From a virus, in IMG/VR virus record IMGVR_UViG_3300005602_000003, positions 1 to 64,000 of that record: DNA of 64,000 bases. One strand, written 5' to 3'. Shown here in pieces: positions 417 through 63,226 of the stretch. Numbering within the stretch: the first letter of the stretch is position 1; the number at the start of each line of letters is the position of its first letter. A model generated the notes under the pieces. That model saw only the letters and a list, made by a program, of their open reading frames with translations. It was not told where the DNA came from and ran no database searches. A program made the position numbers and the translations under genes.

Positions 417-631
417 TTCTTCGGTTCCTTGGGCAACGGAGGCGGCACTGCCAGTCCAATCAAAAACCATGGCATCTGCGCCCAGAGACGCTTGAGCTTT
501 TCCTCGTCGGTTTCTTTTGTTTGTTCAGTCATAGGGCAGACCTCAAGAACTCGGAGGCGAGGTGGGGGGTGTTGAATCAGGTTGTAGAGCCGGTGGGCGC
601 AGTAGGGATCGAGCTCGTTGTAGTAATTCAT
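413..631 (-). CDS. Small protein with methyltransferase-like leader
   Basis: A 72-residue ORF coupled by ATGA overlaps to the methyltransferase upstream (628) and the exported protein downstream (416). The first 19 residues, MNYYNELDPYCAHRLYNLI, look like the leader I associate with phage cytosine methyltransferases, but no catalytic domain follows. The second half, from Met34 (base 532), is acidic and ends in a short hydrophobic run (WFLIGLAV) and prolines. It may be a fusion, a decayed methyltransferase start, or a real gene that begins at 532. Confidence 0.5.
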   Translation of the reverse strand: MNYYNELDPYCAHRLYNLIQHPPPRLRVLEVCPMTEQTKETDEEKLKRLWAQMPWFLIGLAVPPPLPKEPKK

Positions 632-1347
632 TTGGTGAGCCGCCGCTCGATCATAGCCGCGTACTCCGGGTTGGCCTCAATCAAGATTGCGTGACGGCCA
701 AGATTGGCTGCAGCTTCGCCCGTCGTGCCGCTGCCGGCGGTGATGTCAAGTACGATCTCGTTCGGTCGGCTATACGTCGCGATCAACCATTCCATCAGAG
801 CCACCGGCTTTTGCGTCGGGTGACACTTTGTCGGATCGTCGTTATTGATGATCGAGATTTCGAGAACGCTCGTCGGGTAGCGTTCAGTCGAGCCGCCTGA
901 AACAATCTCTTGAGTCTTCGCGCCATAATTTTTCCCGTGCGAAGTCTGAGTCGCGGCGTGAACTGGTTCGTGCCCCTGCGTCATCTGCGGATTATAGACC
1001 GGCGGCGCGCGATAGAAAACTAGAACGTGCTCGTGAACGCGCAACGGCTGGCGCTTCGCATTCAGGAAGCCGGTTGGTTTATTTTTACGCCAAATCAGGT
1101 CGTAGCGAAAATCTTCGAGATTGCTGCAAATCAATTGCGCGGCGAACGGTTCGGCTGCCATGAGCACAATAGCCGCGGCCGGCTTCGCGACGCGACGCAG
1201 CTCGCGCCACATCGACGCAAAGGCAATCGGTTTGTCCCAGGCATTCTGCGTTTTGCCGTACGGAAGATCCGATAGCACGAGGTCGACAGAAGCTGTGCGC
1301 AGCTTCACAAGCACTTCGAGACAGTCGCCAACGCAGATTTTGTGCAT
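628..1347 (-). CDS. DNA N6-adenine/N4-cytosine methyltransferase (beta-type)
   Basis: A 239-residue AdoMet-dependent DNA methyltransferase. The catalytic motif SDLPYG lies at about residues 26-31 (a D-x-P-Y variant). The AdoMet motif DITAGSGTTG is at about 201-210, preceded by HPTQKP. This order (catalytic motif first) is that of the beta class, which methylates an exocyclic amino group. No restriction endonuclease is adjacent, so it is probably an orphan enzyme protecting phage DNA or altering regulation. Start: ATG 1347 is preferred over an upstream TTG (1380), which overlaps the -35 box. The ATG is only five bases past the -10, so the mRNA may be leaderless. Confidence 0.85.
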   Translation of the reverse strand: MHKICVGDCLEVLVKLRTASVDLVLSDLPYGKTQNAWDKPIAFASMWRELRRVAKPAAAIVLMAAEPFAAQLICSNLEDFRYDLIWRKNKPTGFLNAKRQPLRVHEHVLVFYRAPPVYNPQMTQGHEPVHAATQTSHGKNYGAKTQEIVSGGSTERYPTSVLEISIINNDDPTKCHPTQKPVALMEWLIATYSRPNEIVLDITAGSGTTGEAAANLGRHAILIEANPEYAAMIERRLTK

Positions 1348-3448: not shown

Positions 3449-5836
3449 TTACCCTCTCGTTTTCCACACATCGGCTTTTTCGCGCCACCTCCATGCGCCG
3501 AACGAGCGTTCCCAAATGTCGCGACATTCTTTCAATTCGGGTATTTTCCACCAATTACCGTCCTTTTTGTGCAATTTTTCGCAAGACTGTTCACCCAAAA
3601 ACCGGCCCAATGCGGTCACGTTCACGTCTCCGGGCCTCGTAGAATGTTCCCTCGCGAGGTTCAGTAGAACATGTGCGGGAACATGCCCGCTCGCTGTCGA
3701 ATTGACCGGCAACGTCGCGTCCTGGAGCAACGTTGCCCACCATGTTCCGATCGGCGACAAGCTCCGCTCTTTCTGCAATCTCAGGGCCTCGTTGTGGATC
3801 ACTTGGCGCGGATGCCAGTCGCCCAGCTTGGCGCGCTGCAGGTCGAACAGCATGGCGGCGAGCCCGTCTCCGCTCAACTCTTCGTGAAGAGCTCTGAAAT
3901 AGGCCCTGTCCCCCACCTTGGCGGCCGACACATTGAAGATCGCATAACGGCGTTCGTCATGGCTGGTCGGCACCACCCAATCGGCATTGGCCGCCATGAT
4001 GACGTGCAGCCGGTTCCGCCACGGCGTTGCGTCGATGCCTTTTTGCTCGATCATGAGCGCTGGCTCGGTCAGCATCCCCTTGAGCACCGACTCGCCCTGC
4101 TTGTCACCGGCCCAGAACGCTTCATCGGCGAACAGCAGCAGGCAATTGCGCAGGTGGCCATTGAACGCCCCGACCAAGTGCTTGCTGTTGAAGATCTGCA
4201 GCCCATGCTGGCCGAACAGCCTCTTGAGCGCGTTCGCGAAGCTCCCCTTGCCGCTCCCCTTGTCGCCGCGGAACACCAAGGCCACCTCGGCTCGCTCGCC
4301 GGGGTGCTGCACCGCCCAGGCCGCGAACCGCAAAATGTAGCCGGCCGCCTCCGCATCTCCGGCCGCCAGCACGTTCACGATATGCTCGCGCATTCGTGAC
4401 CAGTCGCCAGCCTTCGGTTCGACCGCAAAACCGTTCCACAAGTTCAGGTATCCGGCCGGTATCGTGCCTTCTGGTGAAAGATCAATGCCTTCGTAACTCT
4501 TTCTCCCGGGCCACTTCAGCCAATAGGCTCCGATCGGCTTCGATTCGTCAGCAACCTTGACGTACTTATGGGCGTATCGTTCGGCGAAACTTTTGAAGCT
4601 CTGAAAGGACGGTACGCGCAATTGCGCATCCACTTTGCTAGGCACCCACCCCAGAACGAGGCATTTTCCGCCCATATCGCCTATTACGCAGAACTGGTCG
4701 TTAAGACTTATCAATGGGTTATTGGGCGTCGTTGCGCCTTTGAACGCGGCGTCAAGTTCCGGCATCGCCTCGGCCGCATGATGCCCGTTCGCCTCCTTGA
4801 CCGGTTCACCCGCCGCAGGCGGGTCGAAAGGGCTGAATTCTTCTGGCACCGTCTCTCGCGGCGTCCGGCTCGGCGGCGTCCACCCAGGCTGCACCTCGCG
4901 CGCCAGGATCACCAAGCGCCCAAAGCCGGTGCGGGTCGGCGGCGAGCGGAACAGGTGCGCCCACTCGGCATCGACATCGGCGGCCGTGTACTTGCCGGAC
5001 TTGGCCGAAAAGTCGTGCCCGAGAGCGCGCCCGGCTTCCGAGCCATCGGTGGCCGCCCAGATCGCCATGATCCCGGCCTTCCACGCCTTCCAGCCCAGAT
5101 CCGGGTTTGTGATGACGGCGATCGCCGCAGCCACATCCTCGATCGGCACCGGTTCGTCCAGGCTCGCCGCAAGGTCCGTCATCGCCTCGCAGGCCGGATC
5201 CTTGGCCCATTCCGGCGGCTGCCCGAGCTCAAGACGTTGCTGCGGGGCCTGGGTGCTCTTCGGTTCCCCGGGTCGGTTTTCGAACCAGTGCAGCAGTTCC
5301 GCCGGCAACGGAACGGGCACCGTCTGGTTGAGCCACGCGTAACGCTGGCCGCTGCGGTGCATGGAAGGTGGCACTACCACCAGCCCGCCGTCGCCGCGGA
5401 TGTCGAGCCCGTGGCCATCGTTGGACGGCACCGGGCCACTGGCCGCGTAATAGAGGTGTCGGCCGATCCCAGGCCGGCCGGATCGAGCCGAGAGGGTCTT
5501 CTGCAACGGGCTCTTGATCGCGCTTTTGAGCGTGGCCACGCCGTCAGGGCCGTCGATGTCCACCACCGCAAGCCCGGAGCGCTGGCCGGTCACCACCCCC
5601 ACATTGGCGTCGGGCCAGTCGCGCCACCAGGCTTCGAGCTGTGCCGGGTCGGTCGACGCCAAGGCGTGCTGGATGCCGGTCTTGGGCGGACGCGGGTGCT
5701 TGCCGGCCGACTTGCACTTCGCGCCGCGCCAGCAGGTGCAGACGCGCTCGCCGTTGACGACACGGATACTATGAAGAGGAAGGACGGGCCACCCGCGCGC
5801 CGCGCACTGCAGCGCTGCATCTAGTAGGTCGTTCAT
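3449..5836 (-). CDS. Bifunctional primase-polymerase / helicase
   Basis: A 795-residue replication protein. Residues 1-170 are a prim-pol domain (PF09250 type): GWPVLPL near the start and the metal-binding LAVVDIDG at about 89-96. Residues about 235-320 resemble a primase C-terminal helical domain. Residues about 515-660 are a P-loop helicase/NTPase with Walker A GDKGSGKGS (524-532) and Walker B LLLFADE (566-572), as in phage D5/DUF5906-type helicases. It would prime and unwind at the origin. Residues about 339-346 (PPAAGEPV) in the interdomain linker are encoded by a palindrome copy at 4809-4823. No Shine-Dalgarno is evident; a hairpin (5840-5875) sits just before the ATG. Confidence 0.88.
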   Translation of the reverse strand: MNDLLDAALQCAARGWPVLPLHSIRVVNGERVCTCWRGAKCKSAGKHPRPPKTGIQHALASTDPAQLEAWWRDWPDANVGVVTGQRSGLAVVDIDGPDGVATLKSAIKSPLQKTLSARSGRPGIGRHLYYAASGPVPSNDGHGLDIRGDGGLVVVPPSMHRSGQRYAWLNQTVPVPLPAELLHWFENRPGEPKSTQAPQQRLELGQPPEWAKDPACEAMTDLAASLDEPVPIEDVAAAIAVITNPDLGWKAWKAGIMAIWAATDGSEAGRALGHDFSAKSGKYTAADVDAEWAHLFRSPPTRTGFGRLVILAREVQPGWTPPSRTPRETVPEEFSPFDPPAAGEPVKEANGHHAAEAMPELDAAFKGATTPNNPLISLNDQFCVIGDMGGKCLVLGWVPSKVDAQLRVPSFQSFKSFAERYAHKYVKVADESKPIGAYWLKWPGRKSYEGIDLSPEGTIPAGYLNLWNGFAVEPKAGDWSRMREHIVNVLAAGDAEAAGYILRFAAWAVQHPGERAEVALVFRGDKGSGKGSFANALKRLFGQHGLQIFNSKHLVGAFNGHLRNCLLLFADEAFWAGDKQGESVLKGMLTEPALMIEQKGIDATPWRNRLHVIMAANADWVVPTSHDERRYAIFNVSAAKVGDRAYFRALHEELSGDGLAAMLFDLQRAKLGDWHPRQVIHNEALRLQKERSLSPIGTWWATLLQDATLPVNSTASGHVPAHVLLNLAREHSTRPGDVNVTALGRFLGEQSCEKLHKKDGNWWKIPELKECRDIWERSFGAWRWREKADVWKTRG
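4809..4823. repeat. In-gene palindrome CCCGCCGCAGGCGGG
   Basis: Encodes PAAGE in the linker between the primase and helicase domains, reading GGT-GAA on the minus strand. Confidence 0.75.
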
Positions 5837-6137: not shown

Positions 6138-6155
6138 GCCCGCCGAAAGGCGGGC
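6138..6155. repeat. Palindrome GCCCGCC-GAAA-GGCGGGC
   Basis: Stem with a GAAA tetraloop in the leader of the first early gene; such loops make stable RNA hairpins. Confidence 0.75.
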
Positions 6156-7499: not shown

Positions 7500-9307
7500 G
7501 AATCATTTGCGCGGACGCTGAGTCCTATTACGACGACGAGCTTAGCGTAAAGCGGATGTCGACCGAGGAATACTGTCGGAAGACAACGCCGCATGGTTGG
7601 GCTGTGAAATGGGACGCCACGACCCTGCCACGTTGGCACACTCATGAAGAATTCAAGTATCTCGCAAAACATGAGGACTGGTCAAACATTGGCGTGATCC
7701 ACCATCACGCCCACTTTGACGGATTGCTGCTCTCGCATCACTATGGCGTCCACCCGAAATTCTTCTTTGACACCCTTTCTTACGGCAGGCTTCTCATCGG
7801 GAATCATCTGCCGCTCAGCCTCGACTCGCTGGCGCAGCAGTTCAATCTAGCGCCGAAGACCGTGCCCTATGACCTCTTCAAAGGCAAGCGCTGGCATGAG
7901 CTGTCGCGCGAAGTGCAGGAACAGGTGGCAGACGGCGCCTGCCGGGACGTGGAACTGACCTGGGACCTGTTCAAGATTCTCGGCAGGCAGATGCCGCGGG
8001 AAGAGTTGAGCGTAGTGGATATCACCATCAAGATGTTCACAAATCCTGAACTGATCGGTGACACAGACGCGCTCGCGGCACTCTGGGAATCCGAGAACAA
8101 GGCCAAAGCCGAACGCATGGCAAGTCTTGGGGTGTCCTCGACCGAGCTTCAATCCTCTGATAAGTTCGCGGCGCTGCTCGAAGCCGAAGGCGTCGAGATC
8201 GAGTACAAAGACGGCAAGAAGAAGCAGATACCGTGCTTCGCCAAAACCGACGACTTCATGAGGGGATTGCTGGAAGATGATAACGATCGGGTCAGGGCAC
8301 TCGCCGAAGCGCGTATCGGGCAGAAGTCGACTCTGCTCCAGTCGCGTTCCGAGACTATCGGCTGGATGGCGCGTCGAGGACCTCTGCCTATCTATCTGTT
8401 CTACGCTGGCGCTCATACAAGCCGCTGGTCGGGAGGGGACGATGCGAATTTTCAAAATCTCCCGGCTAGAAAACCTGAAACTCGGCGACTACGAGAAGCT
8501 ATTCTAGCGCCACCGGGCTACGTGATTGGCAAACCCGATCTGAGCCAGATCGAGTGTCGCATCTTGAACTTCCTGGCGGGCCAAGATGACGTGGTCGAGA
8601 AGTTCAAACGCGAGGAGGATCCCTACGTGGGTCTCGCGTCGTTGTTTTACCAGCGACCGATTACCAAAGCGGACGTGAACGAGCGCGGCACTGGCAAGCA
8701 GGGCGAGCTTAGTTGCGGCTACGGCTGCGGCGGCAAGAAGTTCAAGGGCACGGCCAAGGCAGGCACGTACGGCCCGCCGGTCGAGCTGACGCTGGAAAAG
8801 GCGCAGGAGTTCGTCAAAATCTATCGGGACTCGCACCCACGCGTGGTCGACTATTGGAAGGCCGCAGATCGGATGTTGTCGAGCTTAGCGAACGGCGGGA
8901 CCGCGCAGTGGGGGCCGATGCTGGTTCGAGACCACCGCGTCTGGCTTCCCAATGGAATCCCGCTTCTCTATACGACGCTCGAATGGCATGTGGCCGAGGA
9001 CGAAGAGGACGAGACCGGGTGGCGCATGAAGAAGCGCAAGGGCAAGAAGCTGATTTGGGACCGGATGTGGGGTTCCAAGCTGGTCGAGCAGACCACGCAG
9101 GCGCTGGCTCGTGTTGTGATTTCTCGGGCAATGATCCGCATCGCGGCGTTGGGCTATCGTATCAAGAATCAGGAGCATGACGCCATGTGGATCCTGCTCC
9201 CCAAGGACGACCCCGACCGTCACCTGAAAATCTGCATCGACGAGATGACACGCTCGGTGGATTGGCTGCCGGGCCTGCCGCTAGCCGCTGAAGGGAGCTA
9301 CCGATGA
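7496..9307 (+). CDS. Family A DNA polymerase with 3'-5' exonuclease
   Basis: 603 residues. The N-terminal third is a proofreading exonuclease: Asp7 and Glu9 (CADAES), Asp75 (HFDG) and Asp151 (CRDVEL) match the Exo I-III acids. The polymerase domain has motif A PDLSQIECR (Asp348), motif B around RGTGKQGELSCGYG (397-410) and motif C EHDAMW (Asp562). The last is a variant: family members usually have His-Asp-Glu, here Glu is Ala. No 5' nuclease domain, as in T7-like enzymes. This is the replicative polymerase and is coupled on both sides by ATGA overlaps. Confidence 0.93.
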   Translation: MRIICADAESYYDDELSVKRMSTEEYCRKTTPHGWAVKWDATTLPRWHTHEEFKYLAKHEDWSNIGVIHHHAHFDGLLLSHHYGVHPKFFFDTLSYGRLLIGNHLPLSLDSLAQQFNLAPKTVPYDLFKGKRWHELSREVQEQVADGACRDVELTWDLFKILGRQMPREELSVVDITIKMFTNPELIGDTDALAALWESENKAKAERMASLGVSSTELQSSDKFAALLEAEGVEIEYKDGKKKQIPCFAKTDDFMRGLLEDDNDRVRALAEARIGQKSTLLQSRSETIGWMARRGPLPIYLFYAGAHTSRWSGGDDANFQNLPARKPETRRLREAILAPPGYVIGKPDLSQIECRILNFLAGQDDVVEKFKREEDPYVGLASLFYQRPITKADVNERGTGKQGELSCGYGCGGKKFKGTAKAGTYGPPVELTLEKAQEFVKIYRDSHPRVVDYWKAADRMLSSLANGGTAQWGPMLVRDHRVWLPNGIPLLYTTLEWHVAEDEEDETGWRMKKRKGKKLIWDRMWGSKLVEQTTQALARVVISRAMIRIAALGYRIKNQEHDAMWILLPKDDPDRHLKICIDEMTRSVDWLPGLPLAAEGSYR

Positions 9308-9609
9308 TCCACCTGTTCCTGCTGGCCTTCTTTTTCTCGCCAGCTCACGCCGCCGACCTGGCGCTCCCCCGCCTATCGGCGGGCGAGCCCTGCCTCATCC
9401 GCCAATCAACCGGCGCCCCGGTCGTCCCTCACCTCTCGCCCGCCCGCCTACCGGCGGGGTGGGCAGTTTGGCCCGACAAGACATGCGCGTCCGGCTTCCG
9501 CTGGGGCGACGCTGATCGGTGCGACGTGAGCCGTCCGCCTGCGGCGGATAAACCGGCCAAGGTGGTGGACGACGCGAGTTGTCCGTATGGATGGCGATGG
9601 TCCCGCTGA
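9304..9609 (+). CDS. Secreted cysteine-containing protein with three palindromes
   Basis: 101 residues with an N-terminal signal peptide (LFLLAFFFSPAHA). The short mature chain has four cysteines and ends PYGWRWSR. Three palindrome copies are in frame and encode PRLSAGEP, ARLPAGWA and RPPAADKP, about a quarter of the mature protein. It is probably periplasmic; a possible role in blocking superinfection is speculation. Confidence 0.6.
   Translation: MIHLFLLAFFFSPAHAADLALPRLSAGEPCLIRQSTGAPVVPHLSPARLPAGWAVWPDKTCASGFRWGDADRCDVSRPPAADKPAKVVDDASCPYGWRWSR
9368..9384. repeat. In-gene palindrome 1 of 3
   Basis: CCCGCC-TATC-GGCGGGC encoding RLSAGE in the secreted protein. Confidence 0.75.
9443..9459. 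repeat. In-gene palindrome 2 of 3
   Basis: CCCGCC-TACC-GGCGGGG encoding RLPAGW. Confidence 0.75.
9534..9548. repeat. In-gene palindrome 3 of 3
   Basis: TCCGCC-TGC-GGCGGA encoding RPPAAD; the outermost pair has changed from C-G to T-A on both sides, so the pairing is kept. Confidence 0.7.
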
Positions 9610-9821
9610 CCCGCCTGACGGCGGGTGAAGGCGGCTTGCCAGCCGTAGGCTGGTTCCGCTTCGTCACCCACGACCGCGTACTCGACTATTTGAATTGTGG
9701 GTGGCACATCGCATCTGTTGACCTTGGTCACCATAGCGAGTATGCTGTACTTCTTGAGTGGCTTTGTGCCTGTCCTCTGAAGGAACCAAAACATGCCGAC
9801 CAACGTCGAAGACCTGGCTGA
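9597..9821 (+). CDS. Conserved small phage protein
   Basis: 74 residues from ATG 9597 (ATG 9591 also possible). FRFVTHDRVLDYLNCGWHIA followed by DLGHHSEYAVLLEWLCAC is a pattern I know from short alphaproteobacterial phage proteins. It overlaps the secreted protein by 13 bases and the next gene by 29. A palindrome (9609-9626) encodes TRLTAGEG near its start. Function unknown. Confidence 0.55.
   Translation: MVPLTRLTAGEGGLPAVGWFRFVTHDRVLDYLNCGWHIASVDLGHHSEYAVLLEWLCACPLKEPKHADQRRRPG
9609..9626. repeat. Palindrome ACCCGCC-TGAC-GGCGGGT
   Basis: Begins at the last base of the secreted-protein stop codon and encodes RLTAGE in the next gene. Confidence 0.75.
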
Positions 9822-10451: not shown

Positions 10452-10697
10452 ATGAGCAAGTTTAGAAAAAAGCCGGTCGTAATCGAGGCGTTCCAGTGGA
10501 CAGGACAACGGCCGGCCAATTGGCCGGAATGGGCAACAAAGGTCAGGCTGCTTGATGGGCGCGATCTCATTGTTGACACGCTCGAAGGTCGCATGCGTGC
10601 CGATCTCGGGGATTGGATCATCAAGGGCGTGAAGGGCGAGCAATATCCCTGCAAGCCCGACATTTTCCTTGCAACCTACGAACCGGTCGCAGACTAG
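10452..10697 (+). CDS. Conserved phage protein, FRKKPVVIEA family, copy 1
   Basis: 81 residues. Starts MSKFRKKPVVIEAFQWTG and ends with GDWIIKGVKGEQYPCKPDIF and TYEP, the signature of a widespread small phage family of unknown function. A paralogue is at 17210-17491. The conserved PGDWIIxGV and PCKPDIF blocks suggest a small beta fold. Confidence 0.75.
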   Translation: MSKFRKKPVVIEAFQWTGQRPANWPEWATKVRLLDGRDLIVDTLEGRMRADLGDWIIKGVKGEQYPCKPDIFLATYEPVAD

Positions 10698-11063: not shown

Positions 11064-11782
11064 ACGCCCTCGACCTCCCACCCGCGCTCGACCGCGCATC
11101 ACCCGCCTGGGGTCCGATGAACAAGCTTCCGCCATTTACCTACACGGGCCTCAACCTGTATGATGACATCTGCCCGCATCAGTTCTACCGGAAATTCATC
11201 AAGAAGGACATCAAGTATGTCGAGACTCCGCAGATGGCTGCGGGCAACGTCGCCCACCGAGCGCTTGAGTTACGCGTTGGTCGCGGCGTGCCTCTTCCTG
11301 GTGCTCTGGGTCACCTTGAGCCACTAGTCGCTCCGTTCGACGGCAAGGGCGCCAAGGTCGAGGTGAAGCTGGGACTCACCGCTACGGGCGGCACGACTGG
11401 GCACTTCTCCGACGACACGGCGGGGCGCTGCCGCATTGACGTTTACATGATCTCGGGCACGTCCGCCTATCTGGTTGACTGGAAGACGGGCTCGGTGCGG
11501 GAGGACCCGTTCGAGCTCGAAGTCCAAGGCTTGTTCCTCAAGGCGCGCTACCACCAGATTCAGACGATCAAGGCGAAGTACGCGTGGCTCAAGGAAAAGC
11601 GATTTGGGCAGGTGCATGACGTATCGGACACCAAGCGGACCTGGGCGCGCGTCACGGGCATCGTGGAGCGGATGAAAAAGGAACCCTCGCCCGCCGAAGG
11701 CGGGTGGGAGAAGCGCCCAGGCGGACTATGTAAGGCGTGGTGCGACGTTTTTGATTGTGAGCACAATGGTCGGCGCAAATGA
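11060..11782 (+). CDS. PD-(D/E)XK exonuclease, RecB/Cas4-like
   Basis: 240 residues. The nuclease signature is RCRIDVYMISGTSAYLVDWK: an Asp in motif II, then D-W-K in motif III, as in the PDDEXK_1 family (PF12705). A late QIQTIKAKYAWL helix resembles the Q-rich motif. Cysteines near the start (ICPHQFY) and near the end (CKAWCDVFDC) could hold the iron-sulphur cluster typical of Cas4/AddB-like nucleases. Probably acts with the helicase downstream in recombination or host DNA breakdown. A palindrome (11690-11704) encodes SPAEGGW. Confidence 0.78.
   Translation: MNALDLPPALDRASPAWGPMNKLPPFTYTGLNLYDDICPHQFYRKFIKKDIKYVETPQMAAGNVAHRALELRVGRGVPLPGALGHLEPLVAPFDGKGAKVEVKLGLTATGGTTGHFSDDTAGRCRIDVYMISGTSAYLVDWKTGSVREDPFELEVQGLFLKARYHQIQTIKAKYAWLKEKRFGQVHDVSDTKRTWARVTGIVERMKKEPSPAEGGWEKRPGGLCKAWCDVFDCEHNGRRK
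11690..11704. repeat. In-gene palindrome CCCGCCGAAGGCGGG
   Basis: Read CCC-GCC-GAA-GGC-GGG-TGG; the usual TGA tail is TGG here, which avoids a stop. Confidence 0.75.
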
Positions 11783-12560: not shown

Positions 12561-14164
12561 CCCAATTTTTTCACGACACTCAGCGCAACATCCTGGTCTA
12601 CCCGCAGGTTTCCGATTACTGGCGCGAGCAGCTTATCCGCGCGATGCCGGAGGCCCGGGCTCTACCCGCCGCAGGCGGGGTGGCCGTCCCGCGGACCCTG
12701 CGATCGAGCCAGGTGCTGCGTCACTTCGGCTATCCGGTGCCGCCGATCATGTCCGAATACGACTGGCCGGCCGAACCCGGCATTCACCCCTACGAGACCC
12801 AGAAGCTCGCCGCCAACTTCATGGTGCTGCACCCGAAGTGTTTCAATTTGTCGGATATGGGGACCGGAAAAACGCTGTCGACGCTGTGGGCCTGCGACTG
12901 GCTCATGCTGCAAGCCGCCAAGGTCGACAAGCCGTTCCGGGTGCTCATCGTCTGTCCGCTGTCCATCATGCAAAGGGTTTGGGCCGATGCCATCTTCAAG
13001 CATTTCCTGTCTCGCCGAACGCTTGCGATCCTCCACGGCTCTCCTGAGAAGCGAGCCAAGGAGCTTGCAAGAAATGCAGATTTCTACATCGTCAATTTCG
13101 ATGGGGTTGGAACAGGCGCTCATACGCGTAAGAAGCTGGAGCTTGATGGATTCTCTGCCGCGCTCGCGGCACGTAGCGATATCCGGCTCGTCGTCATAGA
13201 CGAAGCGTCCGCTTACAAAGACGCGCAAACCAAACGGCACCGAATAGCCCGCCAGGTCTTCGGCAATCGCTGGCGCTGGCTCTTGACCGGAACCCCGACC
13301 CCCAACGCCCCGACCGACGCCTACGGCCTCGCCAAGCTGGTGAACAACGCCGAAGGCAAGTCGTTCAAGACGTTCCAGCTAGAGACGATGCTGCAGGTTT
13401 CCAACTTCAAGTGGAAGCCCAAGACCAACGGCTACGAGCTGGCTCGCAAGCTGCTGACCCCATCCATCCGCTTCGACATCTCGCAAGTGTGGGATGGCCC
13501 GCCGATGACGGTGCAGCAGCGCGAGGTGGAGCTGACCGTCGAGCAGAAGAAGCTCATGGCGGAGCTCAAGCGCAGCCTGCAGGTGACCGTGAAGTCGGGA
13601 CAGCCGATCACGGCCGTGAACGAGGCTGCCGTGCGTACCAAGTTCCTGCAGGTGAGTCTCGGGGCCGTTTACGACCAAGGCCACAAGGCGCACCCGGTCG
13701 ACGCTACGCACCGCATCGAGGAACTCAAGGCGGTGATCCGTGAGGCGCCGGGGAAAATGTTGATCTTCGTGGGGTTGACATCTGTGGTGAACCTCTTGTA
13801 TAAGCACCTGACGGATTGGTCCAGGGAGGTGGTCAATGGCGAAACTAGCCAAAAAGAACGAAACCGTATTTTTGGAGCTTTCCAATCAGCAGATAACCCT
13901 CGACTGCTCATCGCAGATCCTGGCACAATGGCTCATGGGCTCAATCTCTACGCTGCTCGAACAGTCGTTTGGTACGGCCCATGTGACCGTACTGAGCTCT
14001 ACCTACAAGCGAACAAAAGAGCCCATCGACCCGGACAAAAGCATCCCGTTACGGTCGTCCAAATCGTAAGCAACTCGCTGGAACGCGAGATCTTCCGCCG
14101 TCTGGAAAAGAACGAGTCGATGCAGGGCATGCTGCTCGACATGGTGAAGCGAGGGGAGCTATGA
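12557..14164 (+). CDS. SNF2-type DEAD/H helicase
   Basis: 535 residues; ATG 12557 overlaps the HNH stop. Walker A is DMGTGKTL (100-107), Walker B LVVIDEAS (211-218), and the C-terminal RAHRPGQ (488-494) is motif VI of the SNF2 group. Such phage enzymes act in replication restart or displace DNA-bound proteins. A palindrome (12665-12679) encodes LPAAGGVA at residues 36-43, before the helicase core. Confidence 0.88.
   Translation: MTQFFHDTQRNILVYPQVSDYWREQLIRAMPEARALPAAGGVAVPRTLRSSQVLRHFGYPVPPIMSEYDWPAEPGIHPYETQKLAANFMVLHPKCFNLSDMGTGKTLSTLWACDWLMLQAAKVDKPFRVLIVCPLSIMQRVWADAIFKHFLSRRTLAILHGSPEKRAKELARNADFYIVNFDGVGTGAHTRKKLELDGFSAALAARSDIRLVVIDEASAYKDAQTKRHRIARQVFGNRWRWLLTGTPTPNAPTDAYGLAKLVNNAEGKSFKTFQLETMLQVSNFKWKPKTNGYELARKLLTPSIRFDISQVWDGPPMTVQQREVELTVEQKKLMAELKRSLQVTVKSGQPITAVNEAAVRTKFLQVSLGAVYDQGHKAHPVDATHRIEELKAVIREAPGKMLIFVGLTSVVNLLYKHLTDWSREVVNGETSQKERNRIFGAFQSADNPRLLIADPGTMAHGLNLYAARTVVWYGPCDRTELYLQANKRAHRPGQKHPVTVVQIVSNSLEREIFRRLEKNESMQGMLLDMVKRGEL
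12665..12679. repeat. In-gene palindrome CCCGCCGCAGGCGGG
   Basis: Encodes PAAGG ahead of the helicase core; right flank GTG instead of TGA. Confidence 0.75.
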
Positions 14165-15041: not shown

Positions 15042-16115
15042 ATGCCTCCGGAACTTCCCGCATACCTACAAAACGACGGCGAGCAGTTCGCGGTCGACAC
15101 CCTCACGCAGAACCTCGGCGTCGGGATGCCGCCCTACGTGTCGATCGCCGAGAACCGGTTCAAGCTGGTCGACGGCGCGGGTGACGAGGAGCCGATCACG
15201 ACGGTCGACCCCAAGACCGGCATCCCGTATTTCGACGCGTGCATCATCGACTGGAACGAGCATCCGTCCAAGGTCTTCTTCTCGCGGCCATATGACCCCA
15301 ACGATCCGTCGCCGCCCGACTGTTGGTCCGACAACGGCGTGGCTCCGTCGATCAATGCAGCGAGCCCGCAGCACGCGACGTGTGATGGCTGCCCCAAGGC
15401 GGTCTGGGGCTCCGCCACCTCCAAGGTCTCGGGCAAGGGCGTGCCGGCGTGCAACAAGACCCAGAAGCTCGCGCTCGCGTTGCCCGACGACGACGTGGTG
15501 TTCCTGCTGCGCGTGCCGCCGAACAGCCTGGAGAACCTGCGGGCCTACACCAAGAAGTTCCAGGGCCAGAAGGTGAGCGTCGCCAGCGTCATGACCCGCA
15601 TCTCGTTCGAGAAGGGCGTGATCGGCACCCTGACGTTCGCGGCCACGGCGTACATCGACCAGAAGATGGCGACGTTTCGGAACAAGATCCGGGCCGAGAA
15701 GGGCACGGATGCCATGGTGGGGCGGACGGATCGACCGCGCCTGACGGCGGGTGAACCCGTGAAGCAGGTGGCGGGCGGCCCTTTGTCGCCGGGGGGGTCT
15801 GCCCAGAATGCGGCCTCCCAGTCGACCACCACGGCACCAGCACAGACCCAAATCGCAGGCCCTGTGCAGGCTGCATCCCCTTCTAGCCCGCCACAGGCGG
15901 GTGAACCCGCCCCCACAGGCAGGCGCCGTAGCCGCCCGAAGGCCGAACCCGCCGCAGGCGGGCTACCCGACCCGAACGCCCAGGCTCCGTTCCGGCCGAC
16001 CCCGCCTCCCGGCGGGCAAGCTGCCCCTTCACCCGCCGCAGGCGGGTTCGGCATCCAGAACGGAGCCGCCCCGGACGCCGCGATCACGGCCGAGCTGGAC
16101 GCGCTGTTCTCATGA
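15042..16115 (+). CDS. SSB-like ssDNA-binding protein with repeat-built linker
   Basis: 357 residues. Residues 1-230 form the folded part: CDGCPKAVWGS with a later Cys (VPACNK) suggests a zinc site, then a beta-rich region as in phage single-strand-binding proteins. Residues 235-345 are a low-complexity Pro/Gly/Ala linker. The chain ends ITAELDALFS, an acidic-aromatic tip like the SSB tail that recruits partners. The linker holds six palindrome copies (15736-16046), encoding LTAGEPV, PPQAGEPA, EPAAGGLP, PPPGGQ, SPAAGGFG and a decayed one. A ribosome site AAAGGA precedes the ATG. Confidence 0.7.
   Translation: MPPELPAYLQNDGEQFAVDTLTQNLGVGMPPYVSIAENRFKLVDGAGDEEPITTVDPKTGIPYFDACIIDWNEHPSKVFFSRPYDPNDPSPPDCWSDNGVAPSINAASPQHATCDGCPKAVWGSATSKVSGKGVPACNKTQKLALALPDDDVVFLLRVPPNSLENLRAYTKKFQGQKVSVASVMTRISFEKGVIGTLTFAATAYIDQKMATFRNKIRAEKGTDAMVGRTDRPRLTAGEPVKQVAGGPLSPGGSAQNAASQSTTTAPAQTQIAGPVQAASPSSPPQAGEPAPTGRRRSRPKAEPAAGGLPDPNAQAPFRPTPPPGGQAAPSPAAGGFGIQNGAAPDAAITAELDALFS
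15736..16046. repeat. Cluster of six palindromes in the SSB linker
   Basis: Copies at 15736-15752 (one arm mutated), 15887-15901, a decayed one near 15908-15925, 15948-15962, 16001-16016 and 16032-16046. The densest cluster in the window. Confidence 0.75.
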
Positions 16116-16131
16116 CCCCGCTGGCGCGGGG
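16116..16131. repeat. Palindrome CCCCGCTGGCGCGGGG
   Basis: Starts immediately after the stop codon of the SSB-like gene and is followed by TAAACCC and the next ribosome site. Confidence 0.75.
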
Positions 16132-17209: not shown

Positions 17210-17491
17210 ATGGCGAAGTTCAGAAAGAAGCCGGTCGTGATCGAGGCCGTCAAGTTTCTCGGCCCAGTGCGCGAGATAGAGGGTGATGAGCCGCAATGGT
17301 ATTGCGCGGCCCGCTCGATCGACCCGGGTGAGATCGGCGCCATCTCGTATCGGGATGGCTGCATGCACATCGGCACGCTAGAGGGCGTCATGAAGGCAAT
17401 GCCGGGAGACTGGATCATTCGCGGCGTGAAACATGAACTGTACCCGTGCAAGCCGGACATCTTCGCCGCGACCTACGATCCGGCTGACTGA
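17210..17491 (+). CDS. Conserved phage protein, FRKKPVVIEA family, copy 2
   Basis: 93 residues from ATG 17210 after GAGGG. MAKFRKKPVVIEAVKFLG, PGDWIIRGVKHELYPCKPDI and ATYDP match the copy at 10452-10697, with a longer middle. Two diverged copies in one early operon suggest either duplication or two specificities. Confidence 0.75.
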   Translation: MAKFRKKPVVIEAVKFLGPVREIEGDEPQWYCAARSIDPGEIGAISYRDGCMHIGTLEGVMKAMPGDWIIRGVKHELYPCKPDIFAATYDPAD

Positions 17492-21293: not shown

Positions 21294-21351
21294 GATCAGC
21301 CTCCCAGCTTGAGGCTGCTAACCAAGATACAAAATGCGGTAGAAATGAGGC

Positions 21352-21367
21352 CCGCCTATCGGCGGGT
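21352..21367. repeat. Palindrome CCCGCC-TATC-GGCGGG
   Basis: In the gap between two lysis-region genes, followed by TAAACCC as at 16116. Confidence 0.75.
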
Positions 21368-27485: not shown

Positions 27486-28583
27486 CTATAGCTGGACGTA
27501 GGTTAGATTCCCGGACACATAGACGTTCGTGCCGTTGACCATGCAGAACTCGGCGGAAGCTGCACCCTTTGCGATGGTTCCGGAACCGTTACCGTAGGTC
27601 TCGCCGCCGTTTGCGGCGTATGACATGCTGTTGGCGACGTTGGTGGTCGTACTGCCGATGACTGCCGCATTATTGGTCGCACACGCAGTTCCGGTCCCGG
27701 TCGTAAAAGCCACCGTCGTCGCCCCGGCGACCACGTAATGGAGCGCGCAAACATAGATTGTCGTTGAGCCGGACAGAGCAACGAGTTGTACGGACGAAGT
27801 GCCATTTGTGGTGAAGGCCACATTGGTTTTATTGCCATACGCGCACGGATCGTTGCTCACATAGCCAATGAGATTGCACGGGCTACTCGTGCAAGCTGGA
27901 ATTTGAGAGGCGATTAAGGTTGCGAGATTGGAACCGTTCGGTGCGTCGATATGCAAATTCGCGCTGCTGTCGATTTCCGCATTTTGCACAGTGCCGGTTG
28001 CGCCGCCATTCTGTGTTCCCCCCAGCAGCACCGGAGGATTGGCGGCTGCGCTACCGGCTGCCGTGGGGCCAAAGACGGCACCGGAGGAACCGGAGCCACC
28101 GCCGCCTCCACCCGAGCCCGTAGGCAGGCCCGAACCGCCCACCATGTTGACGGTAGTGGTCGAGGTCGACGTGATGCAGGTGAGCTGCGTGTTGGTGCCG
28201 ACCGTGAACCCAAACCAGCTATTGGGCGGAATTGGTTGATCGCTAGTCGTAGCCGACGCGCCAAGCTTGCAATACGCTACGTTGGTGGCCCCGGCGTTGC
28301 TGGCCACCACCTCGGCGCCGGCCGGGAGAGTGCCGGTGACGCCGCCGGTCGTAACCGAAATCGGAGTGCCGGTGGTCTGGGTCGTGCCAGGAAAGCCCGT
28401 GATCGAAGCCGAAACCGACGCGCTTACGTATAGCGGATTACCCGAGGCGCAAGGCGCCCACTGGGGGTTCGTCGGCCCCTGGTAGCAGTAGAGGTTGACT
28501 TGTTGCGCTTGCGCCGGAGTCAACCCGCCGCAGGCGGGCAGGAACCAGAGCAGCCCTAGGACTCCGAATACCAGCTTGCGCAT
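27486..28583 (-). CDS. Exported Ser/Thr/Gly-rich protein, putative fibre
   Basis: 365 residues; AGAGGAAG before ATG 28583. The signal peptide is VFGVLGLLWFLPACGGLTPA; its LPACGGLT is encoded by a palindrome (28524-28538). The mature protein is rich in Ser, Thr, Ala and Gly with a pure Gly/Ser hinge about residue 140 and several Cys. Beta-structured fibre or secreted adhesin; no enzyme motif. Confidence 0.6.
   Translation of the reverse strand: MRKLVFGVLGLLWFLPACGGLTPAQAQQVNLYCYQGPTNPQWAPCASGNPLYVSASVSASITGFPGTTQTTGTPISVTTGGVTGTLPAGAEVVASNAGATNVAYCKLGASATTSDQPIPPNSWFGFTVGTNTQLTCITSTSTTTVNMVGGSGLPTGSGGGGGGSGSSGAVFGPTAAGSAAANPPVLLGGTQNGGATGTVQNAEIDSSANLHIDAPNGSNLATLIASQIPACTSSPCNLIGYVSNDPCAYGNKTNVAFTTNGTSSVQLVALSGSTTIYVCALHYVVAGATTVAFTTGTGTACATNNAAVIGSTTTNVANSMSYAANGGETYGNGSGTIAKGAASAEFCMVNGTNVYVSGNLTYVQL
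28524..28538. repeat. Palindrome in a signal peptide
   Basis: CCCGCC-GCA-GGCGGG; minus strand gives PACGGLT, the cleavage region of the signal. Confidence 0.8.
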
Positions 28584-31270: not shown

Positions 31271-31557
31271 TTCCTCCGCACGATCCAGTTCGCGGCGAGC
31301 ACGAAGCTCGCGTAGATCGACAGGCTGATGATCTGGAACGTGTTGGGATCAGGCGTCTTGAACCAAAGCGCGAAGACCGATCCGACCGTGATCAGGGTGA
31401 ACAGCGACGCCAGGGCCACGAGGGATTTCTGGGAGAGCGTGCGCAGTGCCAGGAAAATGGCGTCCGTGGCGATCTTCTGCCCTACGGGCTCGACTTGCCC
31501 GCCGGCAGGCGGGTCAGCGGGCTCTTCGACCAATTGGAATCGCGCTGGTTCCGCCAT
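31267..31557 (-). CDS. Two-helix membrane protein, holin candidate
   Basis: 96 residues. A charged N-terminal half with a palindrome-encoded DPPAGGQV (31498-31513), then two transmembrane helices (LVALASLFTLITVGSVFALW and IISLSIYASFVLAANWIV) and an Arg-Arg-Lys end. Overlaps the fibre start by four bases. Confidence 0.55.
   Translation of the reverse strand: MAEPARFQLVEEPADPPAGGQVEPVGQKIATDAIFLALRTLSQKSLVALASLFTLITVGSVFALWFKTPDPNTFQIISLSIYASFVLAANWIVRRK
31498..31513. repeat. In-gene palindrome CCCGCC-GGCA-GGCGGG
   Basis: Encodes PPAGG in the charged half of the two-helix membrane protein. Confidence 0.75.
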
Positions 31558-31804
31558 TTACCGGGTCTCTTTCTCGCCCGCCAACGGCGGGTGAAGCCCC
31601 GGCCTGAACGCGGGCGCGGTCGATCACTTCGGCGAACGACTGGGGCTCGTCGTCATCCCCGCCCTTCGCCTTGAGGTATGCCGCATAGTAGGCGGTCAGC
31701 TTCCCAAGGCTGTCCAACCGGTCTTGGAGACTTACCCCGTCCTGTTGGGCTTCTTCGGCGATCTTGGATGCCAGGGCGTGGATGTCGGATTCGAAGTTGG
31801 CCAT
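31514..31804 (-). CDS. 96-residue helical protein
   Basis: ATG 31804 directly follows the stop of the ejection protein. Helical N-terminal half (ALASKIAEEAQQDGVSLQDR). The C-terminus, with a palindrome-encoded SPAVGGRE (31577-31591), overlaps the next gene by 44 bases. Unknown. Confidence 0.5.
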   Translation of the reverse strand: MANFESDIHALASKIAEEAQQDGVSLQDRLDSLGKLTAYYAAYLKAKGGDDDEPQSFAEVIDRARVQAGASPAVGGRERDPVNGGTSAIPIGRRAR

Positions 31805-34800
31805 CTACTGCACCGGTATCGGCGACGTTCCAGCCGCGGTCGGAGTCTGGTAGATCGATTCACCCGCAGCCGCGCCCGCAACCCCGCCCTTCTGCATGAC
31901 ACGCTGCAACACCTCGCGCGAGCGCGCAACTGCCGCCGGGTCGCCTTTGAGGCCCTTCTGCACGAAGCGCATCAGCGCGGGGCTGTTCGAAAGGTCCGTG
32001 ACCATCTTGAAATACTTGCCGAGCATCATACGAGCAACGGCGTCGAAGCCGGGGATCTTCGGCAGGTACTCGCCACCTTTACCAGCGATGCCGGACCACG
32101 GGTGCTCCACCTTGGCGGTGGCCGCCATCGACTTGCCGGGATTGTTAGGGTCGCGCACGCCGACCAGGTACGTCATCTCCTTGGCGAGCTGCTTCATCTC
32201 GTCGTAGCGCACGCCCGGGAACATGATCCGCTGCACTTCCTCGCTGACGCCGCCTTTACCCGCGGTGCCGCCGAGCCGTTGGCCGGGCTCCAGCGTGCCG
32301 CGCAGGATGCGTTGCACCCACACCTGCCGCAGGGCATTGAACTCAGGCGACTCGCGACCGAAGCGCGCCTCCGCGGCCAGGATCAAATCCTCGTTGTTGA
32401 GGATGCGATCGACCGCCTCGGATGCGCCTGTGGTGATGTCGTACAGGAAGCCCAATGGGTCCTGCTTCTGACGCAGCCGCATCTTCGACGCGTCGCGCTT
32501 GGCTTCCTGCTCGGCCTTGCGCATCTCGCCGTTGAGCGTCTTGAGCGGGTCAGCCTTGGCCTGGGCCTTGGCAGCGTCTGAAGCCAACCGGGCACGTTGG
32601 ATCACGTCCGTCACGGTGTCGCCGGGACGTACCGGGATGTCGAGCTTGCCATCCAGCATGGCAATACGCCGCACCTGCTCCAGCAGGTTCTGGGTCACTT
32701 CACGGCCATGCACGGTCTCCAGCACGCCGCTGTGGTAGCGATCGAGCACATTGCGTGAGAACGCCGAGCCGTCGATCACGTCCGGGGTCGTCTTGGACAT
32801 GCTCGACTGCATCAGGTCGCGCATGTCGGCCGCACGCACGCCAGCCCACAGATTGGGTCCAATCATGTTGCGGATGCGGTTGGTCAGGTCGGTGTGGCCT
32901 TCCTTGACGATCGCCTTGTAGAGCACGTTCGGATCGGCCGGCTCGCCAGCTTCGAGCCCCTTGGTGATCGCTTTGATGTTGTTGGCCTCGAAGATCCGCA
33001 TGTTCTCGCGATAAAACGCATCGGCGCGATCGAGCTGCCCAGCCGCCGCCTGGAGCTCGGGCGACGCCGCCGGATCATGAAGTGCGTCGTCGACGCGGTT
33101 GGCGAAGAACTTGTAGGTGCCGTTCTTGATGTCGGAATTGAGCCGATACCAGTCCGCGTTGGACCGCATCTGCGAGCGCAGATTGTGCAACTGCCCGAAG
33201 GTCGGCTGCGCCGGCTCCCTGATCCACTCGCCAGTCTCGGGATCGCGTTCGCCCGCCATGGCGCGAAGCTGGCGCACGATGCCGGGCTGGTTACGCTGGA
33301 AGTCCTCCGGCAGCTCGTTGGCGAACTGCTCGGCAAGCTCGGGCAGTCCTTCGACGTTGGGCAGGTGCCCTTCGGCAAGCTGGTCGGCCTGATTATACAT
33401 CGTGTTGGCGCGTTCCTGCACGCCACGCCGCACTGCCACGAGCTGGTCGCCGACCATCTGCCAGAGGTCGCCACTATTGTGCCCGGCGCCAGCCGTACGC
33501 GCGGCCTGCTCGATCGACTGGTTGATATGCTGGTAGCCCTGGTCGATCAGGGCCTGCGCGGCGCGCTGCGCGTCCTCGGCCGCCAGGGACAAGGCCTCGC
33601 GCTGGGCTCCCGCCACCGTCCTGTCCACAAGCCCGCCGGTCTTGCGCGCCGCGATGGCGGCTTGCAGCTTGGCGTCCGCCTGCGCCGACTCGGCCAGCGT
33701 CTTGCGCAATATTATTTCGCCAGCCTCCTTGGTCGGCACCGCCGCGGTCGGGTCGACCACCGACTTCGGCGGCGTGGCGCCTGTCATCTCGATGATATTC
33801 TTCGCCTGGTCCTCGTAATGGCGGGTCGCCGACTGCATCAGCGGCTTCTGGGTACGGAACGCCGGGTCGAACGCCTCCGCCACGTTGATGACGTGCGGCA
33901 ACTCAGGCGCCCACATGGAAGGCGGCACCAGGACGCCCTTCTCCCGGAGCGCGATCGCGGTTTCCAGACCTTCCGGGGCTTCCGTGGCGCCTGATATCCT
34001 GGCGGCCAGTGCCGGTAGCGCATTCGTGACCTTGCCCTTGAGGTACGGATAGGCGCCCGCAACGCCACGCCCGATCGCCGAGCCCGCGCCTGCCGTGCCG
34101 GCTGCGAAGCCCAGGTTCTCGGCTTCCTCGCCGCCCGTACGGTCGTAGACGCCCGCGAGCTGCAGAATGGCGTCGTTGAACGCCTGTCCGGCGCCGGCGC
34201 CAGCCGCTGCCCCGGCAATGCCGCCGGCCACGCCACCCGCCACCGTGCCGGCCACAGGGACCGCGCTGCCGCCAACCGCGCCGCCCGCGCCGCCGACCAA
34301 TTCACCCGCGAGGGAACCCAGTACCGGGGCCGCTTGAGAGGTCAGGAAGCCGCCTGTGGCCTGCGCACCGTGCCCCGGCTTGCGCATCTTGCCGCCCTCG
34401 TCCTCGACATAGAGCTCGCCCGTGGGGGTCTCCTTGACCTTGCCAGGGTAAGAGCGCTCCAGCGCCTTGCGGCGCTCCTTGTCGTTGACCGACATGTCGT
34501 AGAGGGTCTGCGCCGTGAAATCGATCGGCTCGTACTTGGGTTTCTGGCGGGTCTGCCCCTGCGGGTCGACATAGGACTCGCCCTCCGGCACGGCATCATA
34601 ATCGGCGTCGCCACTGACCGTGTACTGCTTGCGCCGGGTCTTGCCCTCGGGGTCCACGTAGGTCGAACCGGGCTTGAGGGCCGCGTAGCCGTCCTCGTCC
34701 TTGATGGTCGGCACCCGATCCTGGAACGCTTCGCCGGCCTCGGCGCCCTTGCGGGTGACGGGACCGAAATATGCCTTGGAAGGGTCGTCCCCGCCCGCCG

Positions 34801-34852
34801 CGGGCGGAGTGACTTGTCCCGCGTCAGCGGGATCGATATCAGGGTCCGGCAT
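31805..34852 (-). CDS. Large internal virion (ejection) protein
   Basis: 1015 residues. A Gly/Ala-rich hydrophobic stretch at about 175-250 (VGGAGGAVGGSAVPVAGTVA and on) may enter or span membranes during DNA delivery. The rest is long helical coiled-coil sequence, as in podovirus ejection proteins. No lytic transglycosylase motif seen. The N-terminus contains two palindrome copies (34791-34807 and 34817-34832) encoding TPPAAGGDD and DPADAGQ. Next to another long helical virion protein. Confidence 0.7.
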   Translation of the reverse strand: MPDPDIDPADAGQVTPPAAGGDDPSKAYFGPVTRKGAEAGEAFQDRVPTIKDEDGYAALKPGSTYVDPEGKTRRKQYTVSGDADYDAVPEGESYVDPQGQTRQKPKYEPIDFTAQTLYDMSVNDKERRKALERSYPGKVKETPTGELYVEDEGGKMRKPGHGAQATGGFLTSQAAPVLGSLAGELVGGAGGAVGGSAVPVAGTVAGGVAGGIAGAAAGAGAGQAFNDAILQLAGVYDRTGGEEAENLGFAAGTAGAGSAIGRGVAGAYPYLKGKVTNALPALAARISGATEAPEGLETAIALREKGVLVPPSMWAPELPHVINVAEAFDPAFRTQKPLMQSATRHYEDQAKNIIEMTGATPPKSVVDPTAAVPTKEAGEIILRKTLAESAQADAKLQAAIAARKTGGLVDRTVAGAQREALSLAAEDAQRAAQALIDQGYQHINQSIEQAARTAGAGHNSGDLWQMVGDQLVAVRRGVQERANTMYNQADQLAEGHLPNVEGLPELAEQFANELPEDFQRNQPGIVRQLRAMAGERDPETGEWIREPAQPTFGQLHNLRSQMRSNADWYRLNSDIKNGTYKFFANRVDDALHDPAASPELQAAAGQLDRADAFYRENMRIFEANNIKAITKGLEAGEPADPNVLYKAIVKEGHTDLTNRIRNMIGPNLWAGVRAADMRDLMQSSMSKTTPDVIDGSAFSRNVLDRYHSGVLETVHGREVTQNLLEQVRRIAMLDGKLDIPVRPGDTVTDVIQRARLASDAAKAQAKADPLKTLNGEMRKAEQEAKRDASKMRLRQKQDPLGFLYDITTGASEAVDRILNNEDLILAAEARFGRESPEFNALRQVWVQRILRGTLEPGQRLGGTAGKGGVSEEVQRIMFPGVRYDEMKQLAKEMTYLVGVRDPNNPGKSMAATAKVEHPWSGIAGKGGEYLPKIPGFDAVARMMLGKYFKMVTDLSNSPALMRFVQKGLKGDPAAVARSREVLQRVMQKGGVAGAAAGESIYQTPTAAGTSPIPVQ
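34791..34832. repeat. Two adjacent palindromes of different classes
   Basis: CCGCCCGCCGCGGGCGG (34791-34807) and TCCCGCGTCAGCGGGA (34817-34832), nine bases apart in the ejection protein N-terminus. Confidence 0.75.
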
Positions 34853-38164: not shown

Positions 38165-38180
38165 ACCCGCGTCAGCGGGT
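38165..38180. repeat. Palindrome ACCCGCGTCAGCGGGT
   Basis: Class B copy in the gap before the nozzle gene end, followed by TAACC. Confidence 0.75.
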
Positions 38181-43556: not shown

Positions 43557-43571
43557 CCCGCCATCGGCGGG
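43557..43571. repeat. Palindrome CCCGCC-ATC-GGCGGG
   Basis: In the 33-base gap between the decoration protein and the FlbD-like gene. Confidence 0.75.
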
Positions 43572-47428: not shown

Positions 47429-47608
47429 TCAGTAATCGTGCCCGCGACGCGGACGCTCGGTGCTGACGACGCCTCGACCCGGCTCATGAACCATGCCGGG
47501 GAGGCGGGCCATCTTGTAGGTGTCGGAATAGACCTGGGCGGAACGCACGACCTCGTCGCCGCTCGGCATTTCCTTGGTCTGATTCTCGAAAATGGTGTCC
47601 CGGGCCAT
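47429..47608 (-). CDS. 59-residue structural-region protein
   Basis: ATG 47608 shares a base with the preceding stop (TGATG). Acidic, unstructured; ends GVVSTERPRRGHDY. Confidence 0.5.
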   Translation of the reverse strand: MARDTIFENQTKEMPSGDEVVRSAQVYSDTYKMARLPGMVHEPGRGVVSTERPRRGHDY

Positions 47609-48036
47609 CACGCTGCCTTCGCCTGCCCGCCTGCGGCGGAGCCACCACCGGCGGCTTTGCTCTGCAGATACTGCTGCATCTGCTGATTGTTGGCCTGGCT
47701 CTTCATGGCGAGCTGATTGATCTGGTTGGTCTGCGAGCTCGGCGTCATGGAGCCGGGTGGCACGAACTTGGACAGCTTCTTGATGGTCTCTGAAACGGCG
47801 GCACCCAGCTCGCCCGTGACCCCGATCATCTTCACGATCTCGTCGAGCTTCATCACCACGAGACCAAGCCCTTGCAGCGCCTGCGCCTCGTAGCCCCGGT
47901 TCGGGGTCGGCTGCGTGGCGCCCGAATTGCCGAACGGCGACCCGCCTGCGGCGGGCTGACCCGGCTGGGGCGAACCGCCCGCACCCGCCGGAGGCGGGGC
48001 GGGGGTTTGACCAGGAATTGGAGCTTGGTCGGGCAT
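47608..48036 (-). CDS. Pro/Gly-rich protein with helical core
   Basis: 142 residues. A central helix pair (LGLVVMKLDEIVKMIGVTGE) is flanked by Pro/Gly/Ala-rich tails. Palindromes at 47626-47640, 47941-47955 and 47984-47998 encode GSAAGGQA, QPAAGGSP and PPPAGAGGS. Low-complexity ends are therefore largely repeat-derived. Confidence 0.55.
   Translation of the reverse strand: MPDQAPIPGQTPAPPPAGAGGSPQPGQPAAGGSPFGNSGATQPTPNRGYEAQALQGLGLVVMKLDEIVKMIGVTGELGAAVSETIKKLSKFVPPGSMTPSSQTNQINQLAMKSQANNQQMQQYLQSKAAGGGSAAGGQAKAA
47626..47640. repeat. In-gene palindrome, last base changed
   Basis: CCCGCC-TGC-GGCGGA encoding SAAGGQ near the C-terminus of the Pro/Gly-rich protein. Confidence 0.65.
47941..47998. 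repeat. Two in-gene palindromes
   Basis: CCCGCC-TGC-GGCGGG (47941-47955) and CCCGCC-GGA-GGCGGG (47984-47998), 28 bases apart in the Pro/Gly N-terminus. Confidence 0.75.
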
Positions 48037-48042: not shown

Positions 48043-48090
48043 TTACCGACGACCCTTCCGCTTCATCCTGCGATTGCGGGTGCGGTCCAT
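48043..48090 (-). CDS. 15-residue Arg/Lys-rich peptide, copy 2
   Basis: ATG 48090 to TAA 48043: MDRTRNRRMKRKGRR. It starts on the base after the stop of copy 1 and ends six bases before the Pro/Gly-rich gene. Coding units are 39/48 identical, with reading frame and most peptide residues kept. Probable microprotein; polycationic, so RNA, DNA or membrane binding is plausible. Confidence 0.5.
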   Translation of the reverse strand: MDRTRNRRMKRKGRR

Positions 48091-48941: not shown

Positions 48942-48956
48942 CCCGCCGCAGGCGGG
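48942..48956. repeat. Palindrome between convergent genes
   Basis: CCCGCC-GCA-GGCGGG fills the 15 bases between the stop codons of the rightward cassette and the portal gene. No U-run follows, so it is a weak terminator at best. Confidence 0.75.
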
Positions 48957-63217: not shown

Positions 63218-63226
63218 GATAGCCTC

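Follow-up and report, generated by a model that had tools for sequence, protein, structure and literature searches.

Why does the disordered linker of a phage protein hold several copies of one GC-rich palindrome, and did these copies lengthen it? The linker belongs to an SSB-like protein of 357 aa, encoded by the ORF at 15042-16115 (+ strand) of the window, the 64,000-nt stretch of DNA analyzed here. The ORF sits downstream of a SNF2-type helicase gene and a DUF7307-like gene, and homologues with the same gene order are found in 14 IMG/VR relatives. The protein matches PHROG 27714 (unknown function; E 8e-17). Gene context and weak OB-fold matches make the label SSB-like plausible, with family and fold searches giving no confirmation: Pfam and PDB sequence searches gave no match, and the best Foldseek matches, PrgE and PRD1 P12 among them, are weak (E > 0.1). 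An acidic C-terminal tip after a disordered linker, an SSB trait, is present in both alignment and model, and the C-terminal helix ends near a conserved Phe. GenBank holds only distant homologues of the protein, and megablast found no close phage relatives there. A related-locus search with the SSB-like protein as query gave no matches; related phages were reached via the capsid and helicase genes, which as queries gave relatives.

The Pro/Ala/Gly-rich linker that holds the copies spans 15736-16046 (+). Its pLDDT is below 50, and in the AlphaFold model this holds for residues 239-341 of the protein, save a short break at 315-316. All copies here are given on the + strand. The linker begins with an imperfect copy at 15736-15751 (CGCGCC-TGAC-GGCGGG, with one mismatch, then TGAACC), which is absent from homologues. 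Perfect copies follow at 15887-15901 (CCCGCC-ACA-GGCGGG, then TGAACCC), 15948-15962 (CCCGCC-GCA-GGCGGG, encoding PAAGG), 16001-16016 (CCCGCC-TCCC-GGCGGG, with a GGGA loop and a CTTG tag on the minus strand), and 16032-16046 (TTCA-CCCGCC-GCA-GGCGGG, again encoding PAAGG). A nested palindrome, GGCGGG-TGAA-CCCGCC at 15896-15911, overlaps the first perfect copy and is formed at its junction. Thus, of the six linker copies that a preliminary description of this DNA had counted, four are perfect and one is imperfect, and six is reached only if the imperfect copy and the nested palindrome are both included. A further perfect copy, C-CCCGC-TGGC-GCGGG-G at 16117-16130, lies directly past the stop codon. 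At the genome-wide density, a stretch of 380 nt would be expected to contain 0.28 perfect copies; this one has four (p = 2e-4).

The preliminary description held that these copies had expanded the linker and left the folded domain and the tip untouched. The ORF and the repeat-derived peptides are indeed there, and the folded part and the C-terminal tip are free of copies. The copies fall between conserved short motifs (RRRSRPKAE, APFRP, FGI, and the C-terminal helix) and never within one, so that RRRSRPKAE, APFRP, and FGI are intact. Growth of the linker by a cascade of element insertions would fit the four to five copies within one linker and the APF-to-FGI segment, which carries two copies and, at 20 aa, is longer than in 10 of 11 relatives. 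However, the linker after the last conserved domain residue is 125 aa here, within the 88-171 aa of 11 homologues whose linker length is not conserved, and only one of them (L004) has a perfect copy in it. The predicted variation of linker length among homologues in element-sized steps is not supported, and palindrome-free linkers are equal or longer, close to the identical palindrome-free linkers that the preliminary description itself held to count against it. The homologue comparison largely refutes the cascade, which we consider very improbable. The peptides alone are weak evidence, since the linkers of the whole family are rich in Pro, Ala, Gly, Ser, Thr, and Gln (59-74%); the DNA is the specific part. 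The best explanation, weighed below as a whole, is that the linker offers a refuge for copies because it is disordered, and that other processes determine how long it is.

The preliminary description was framed too narrowly, since copies occur at many sites besides the linker. A census of the 64,877-bp tailed-phage contig, of which the window is the first 64,000 nt, finds 52 copies of the core CCCGC-N4-6-GCGGG against about 0.7 expected, or one hairpin per about 1.25 kb. Loops of 4, 5, and 6 show a large excess over background; cores with any other loop length stay close to it. Family A has 34 copies in the window (0.07 expected), and the stem forms in the contig are CCCGCC (35), CCCCGC (8), and ACCCGC (7). 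Compensatory stem variants occur among the copies. Lone half sites (CCCGCC/GGCGGG) number 91 against 71.7, an expectation that counts all sites; uptake-signal-like half sites were considered and rejected, as lone arms are only mildly in excess. Called genes contain 37 of the 52 copies, the calls coming from a simple codon-score script with long ORFs corrected by hand and small genes uncertain. Gene interiors (>100 nt from a gene end) hold 14 of the 52 copies versus 29.8 expected, whereas N-terminal gene ends (12 versus 6.4), C-terminal gene ends (11 versus 6.5), and intergenic gaps (15 versus 9.3) exceed expectation. The copies show no regular spacing along the contig.

The hairpins share a loop and a tag. 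With the inner C-G pair removed, which gives 51 loops of 3-4 nt, the loop reads GNA or GNNA on one strand in 39 of 51 (12.5% expected, p = 2e-25), and the middle bases vary. The same loop signature recurs in the nearest relatives G004 (13/22) and L059 (5/5). In DNA, GNA loops are known to form stable mini-hairpins in which G and A make a sheared pair, according to a passage in PMC6479982 that cites Yoshizawa 1997. The GN(N)A strand has a YTYR tag (CTTG, CTCG, TTCA) at its 5' foot: position -4 is C/T in 38/41 and position -1 is A/G in 40/41, and the 3' foot is weaker. Over 104 hairpin ends, TTCA is counted 15 times, CTTG 12, CTCG 9, GTAG 2, and CGTC 0. The GN(N)A loop lies on the sense strand in 16 cases and on the antisense strand in 23, showing no bias.

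Copies are scattered over the whole window. From the left, one lies inside the primase-polymerase gene 3449-5836 (4809-4823, minus strand) and one, with a GAAA loop, is intergenic (6139-6154). ORF 9304-9609 contains two (9368-9383 and 9443-9458), and another directly follows its stop codon (9610-9625). Next come a copy near the C-terminus of a PDDEXK-like nuclease gene (11690-11704) and one in the helicase gene (12665-12679), where the window encodes LPAAGGVAVPRT and relatives have LNGA-YVAVPRT. An intergenic copy at 21351-21366, flanked by convergent gene blocks, is terminator-like on the minus strand. The copy at 28524-28538, near the N-terminus of gene 27486-28583, adds 4 aa versus relatives. 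Two copies lie within 31498-31591 (31498-31513 and 31577-31591), and three surround a gene junction within 34790-34941 (34790-34804, 34818-34831, and 34927-34941). Single copies lie at the end of gene 38180-40477 (38166-38179) and in a 33-nt intergenic gap (43557-43571). The Pro-rich N-terminal tail of gene 47608-48036 holds two (47941-47998); on the minus-strand side of this gene, at 48043-48138, there is also a tandem pair of 48-nt units, 81% alike, that begin TTACCGACGACCCTT. At 48942-48956 a copy fills the gap of a convergent gene pair, where L059 and G004 have another hairpin.

Farther right, gene 53089-53376 has two copies that each add 1 to 2 aa (53240-53354), the in-gene copies at 54069-54084 and 55479-55492 leave length unchanged, and that at 56088-56101 adds 4 aa versus all relatives. 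Two copies lie at the C-terminus of gene 56346-57134 (56368-56407). The in-gene copy at 57894-57908 adds 1 aa versus G001; it lies in an NAD-dependent epimerase/dehydratase gene (57519-58523, minus strand), a gene present here in a phage and 64% identical to its G001 homologue. The in-gene copy at 58892-58905 is common to G001 and degenerate in G004, and of two in-gene copies within 60435-60567 the first has a related or degenerate hairpin at its site in G004 and G001. Three intergenic copies lie within 61615-61894 and five near the right end within 62681-63989 (at 62681, 62803, 63496, 63534, and 63974). An HNH endonuclease gene (61026-61484, minus strand; PF13392, E 1e-15) also lies in a hairpin-dense region, one without close homologues in the relatives.

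High copy numbers are confined to the clade of this phage. The nearest relatives have 24 copies (G004), 8 copies (G001), and 5 in a 4.4-kb fragment (L059), whereas the other phages of the capsid/helicase set have mostly 0-2 and a few 4-7. When 2.9 million viral contigs were scanned for CTTGCCCGCCGNAGGCGGG, 14 stretches matched. Of the contigs concerned, at least six are members of this phage group: four have the capsid protein, and the other two, G004 and G005, have many genes in common with the window. Most hairpin sites in the window are absent even from G004 and G001. Filled and empty versions of one site can be compared directly. In the interval from a stop codon to the following ribosome-binding site, the empty sequence CTACTGAGGAG is found in G001 and L060, where L059 reads CTATTGACCCCGCTGACGCGGGGCAAGGAG and G004 reads CTAGCCCCGCCTTTGGCGGGTAAAGGAG. 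Relative to G001, the filled sites L059:2392 and G004:49966 are each longer by about 19 nt, and L059:2392 is 17 nt longer than the window; a second L059 site (1706) gains 20-21 nt over G004 and G001. No target-site duplication is evident at filled and empty sites, among relatives that are 70-89% identical. At an in-gene site that matches between L059 (2161) and G004 (49735), one phage carries a CCCCGC-type hairpin and the other a CCCGCC-type hairpin, with both arms differing together. Same-site hairpins of unlike stem type in the window, L059, and G004 could mark hot spots or selected positions.

Within genes, 17 of 26 alignable sites carry extra residues specific to the window; controls chosen to match in flank conservation and in distance from the protein end give 3.5. 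Together with the empty sites in relatives, these residues support insertion. The gains are small, mostly 1-5 residues (mean 2.2 aa), and none is seen at 54069, 55479, and 60435. Gains of mostly 0-5 aa do not agree with the 5-6 aa that insertion of a whole copy implies. Because they are small or zero, in-place conversion, insertion that loses neighbouring sequence, or trimming at a later stage is also needed, as simple fixed-length insertion does not account for every site. Inheritance followed by decay or turnover is indicated as well, because sites 58892, 60435, and 48942 hold intact or degenerate hairpins in relatives. By reading frame, loop-3 in-gene copies encode PAxGG in 11 cases, PPxAG in 5, and the Arg-rich frame in 0. 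The avoidance of the Arg-rich frame and the depletion of gene interiors back the idea that insertions survive where they are tolerated. Of the proposal that insertion is accepted only where length is neutral, the placement of copies at tolerant spots thus holds up, and expansion of the linker by them does not.

We favor the reading, at a probability of roughly 0.6, that the hairpin is a non-autonomous REP/RPE-like mini-hairpin repeat that spreads at the DNA level within one clade of tailed phages. The unit would be ~18-24 nt long: a GC stem of 5-7 bp without mismatches (CCCGCC/GGCGGG or CCCCGC/GCGGGG), closed by a loop that reads GNA or GNNA on one strand, and, at the 5' foot of that strand, YTYR as an unpaired tag. 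It would insert on either strand relative to transcription, mostly beside stop codons or near gene ends, and in-gene copies would survive only where the frame and the structure of the protein allow them and where they encode acceptable residues, Pro/Ala/Gly instead of Arg. The form recognised may be the hairpin folded in single-stranded replication intermediates. A trans-acting single-strand nuclease or transposase, for example a host enzyme of the Y1/RAYT type, may copy it to new sites; alternatively, replication template switching may do so. DNA seems a better fit than RNA for the hairpin's working form, because the four-base loops are mostly non-GNRA and there is no strand preference. No Y1 transposase (PF01797) was found in the contig or four relatives, and control genomes gave matches. 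A strict-pattern scan of a genome collection for a bacterial source gave one MAG match, with a single copy there.

The same hairpins might instead be functional DNA sites under positive selection, re-evolving wherever sequence permits, for instance as extruded mini-hairpins that a protein of the phage or its host recognises during replication, packaging, or transcription. Phage N4 promoters, which are small DNA hairpins extruded by gyrase (PMC4496689), provide a precedent. The stem and the G..A loop ends are kept and the middle loop bases vary, as in a recognised structure, and at some sites the window, L059, and G004 have position rather than sequence in common. Yet copy number falls from 52 to 0-2 among phages with most core genes in common, most positions are not common even to G004 and G001, and spacing is irregular, which makes this account unlikely. 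Somewhat less likely still is that palindromes arise or are completed in place through replication template switching (quasi-palindrome correction), with no mobile unit. Several in-gene copies without length change speak for it, as do the compensatory stem variants and the arms that pre-exist in a relative (CCCGCC at 57894 in G001; conserved EPR codons at 53341). However, correction of this kind would be expected to favor hairpins regardless of their sequence, and most of the excess comes from a single stem family; the copies also have a tag and a loop in common, and clean 17-21-nt insertions are found.

A role in RNA, as transcription terminators or mRNA hairpins, is suggested by several copies right after stop codons or in convergent-gene gaps and by the T-rich tail of the 21351 copy. 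Against it, 37 of 52 copies lie within called genes, and the flanks lack T runs except at 21351, so that the Rho-independent terminator trait of a GC stem followed by a T run is otherwise missing. Sense-strand GU and AC flank mismatches are equal (33 versus 37), the loop has no sense bias, and Rfam gave no match. An RNA-level hairpin was rejected on this GU/AC symmetry, the loop strand balance, and the Rfam null result, and such a role is highly improbable.

The closest known counterparts of the hairpin include bacterial repeats. REP elements consist of a hairpin with a 5-13 bp stem, a variable loop, and an unpaired tetranucleotide tag at one foot; they occur in many copies, some intragenic and often near protein ends, with lineage-specific amplification (PMC3733652). 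The phage element has the same tag-plus-hairpin plan, with a 5-7 bp stem, a loop of 3-6, and 52 dispersed copies. Unlike in REP elements, its tag is YTYR (CTTG/CTCG/TTCA) rather than GTAG/CGTC, for which the hairpin ends were tested, its loop is GN(N)A, and it is mostly coding, whereas REP elements are mainly extragenic. The RAYT/Y1 gene of GTAG-type REP elements is absent from the phage contig; a host gene may provide it. The element is not filed as REP because it has neither the GTAG/CGTC tags nor the transposase link. Rickettsia palindromic elements (RPE) are found in frame in unrelated coding genes, where they are tolerated and their relics decay (PMC10969869; PMC6649704). They are ~150 bp long (PMC10969869) and encode conserved peptides. 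The phage palindromes likewise lie in frame in genes (37/52, with insertion enrichment at 17/26 sites), but the unit is ~20 nt, sits in a virus on either strand, and uses two or more frames to give several peptides. By analogy, the phage hairpins appear much like the ‘selfish palindromes’ of some bacteria.

The early-promoter hairpins of phage N4 are also small, GC-rich, and formed at the DNA level (PMC4496689). Unlike the about 50 dispersed copies here, which are mostly in genes, they comprise few promoters, used by a giant virion RNA polymerase, the like of which did not come to notice in this phage. In nematomorph mitochondria, perfect inverted repeats in coding sequence are gained and lost between species (PMC6649704). 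Those palindromes are long and arbitrary, with arms that encode conserved residues, whereas the phage copies belong to one short stem family in non-conserved segments. MITEs in viruses such as Pandoravirus salinus are likewise non-autonomous repeats that colonise a viral genome (PMC4495683; PMC6004678). MITEs have terminal inverted repeats and target-site duplications, neither of which is evident here, although the phage unit is itself an inverted repeat and the relatives compared at filled and empty sites are 70-89% identical.

The element is of a known general kind in a new form, and unusual in a phage; a literature search of open-licence papers found no phage case, an absence that is no proof. 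More speculatively, the ~20-nt tagged GN(N)A mini-hairpin may represent a new class of ultra-small mobile DNA in phages, one that multiplies during replication, inserts into or overwrites coding sequence, and supplies Pro/Ala/Gly segments. A compact phage genome would be expected to rid itself of passenger repeats, and this hairpin-dense lineage, with copies mostly in genes, displays repeat proliferation alongside purifying selection. A small genome, empty sites in relatives, and a defined tag and loop make it a tractable case for the spread of palindromes. It also lets one ask which protein segments accept random in-frame sequence. Elsewhere in the window, an N6/N4 DNA methylase gene (628-1347, minus strand; PF01555) has a homologue in 0 of 8 relatives compared. 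Two 40-nt stretches (10458-10497 and 17216-17255) are 85% alike and encode KFRKKPVVIEA-type N-termini of paralogous small ORFs.
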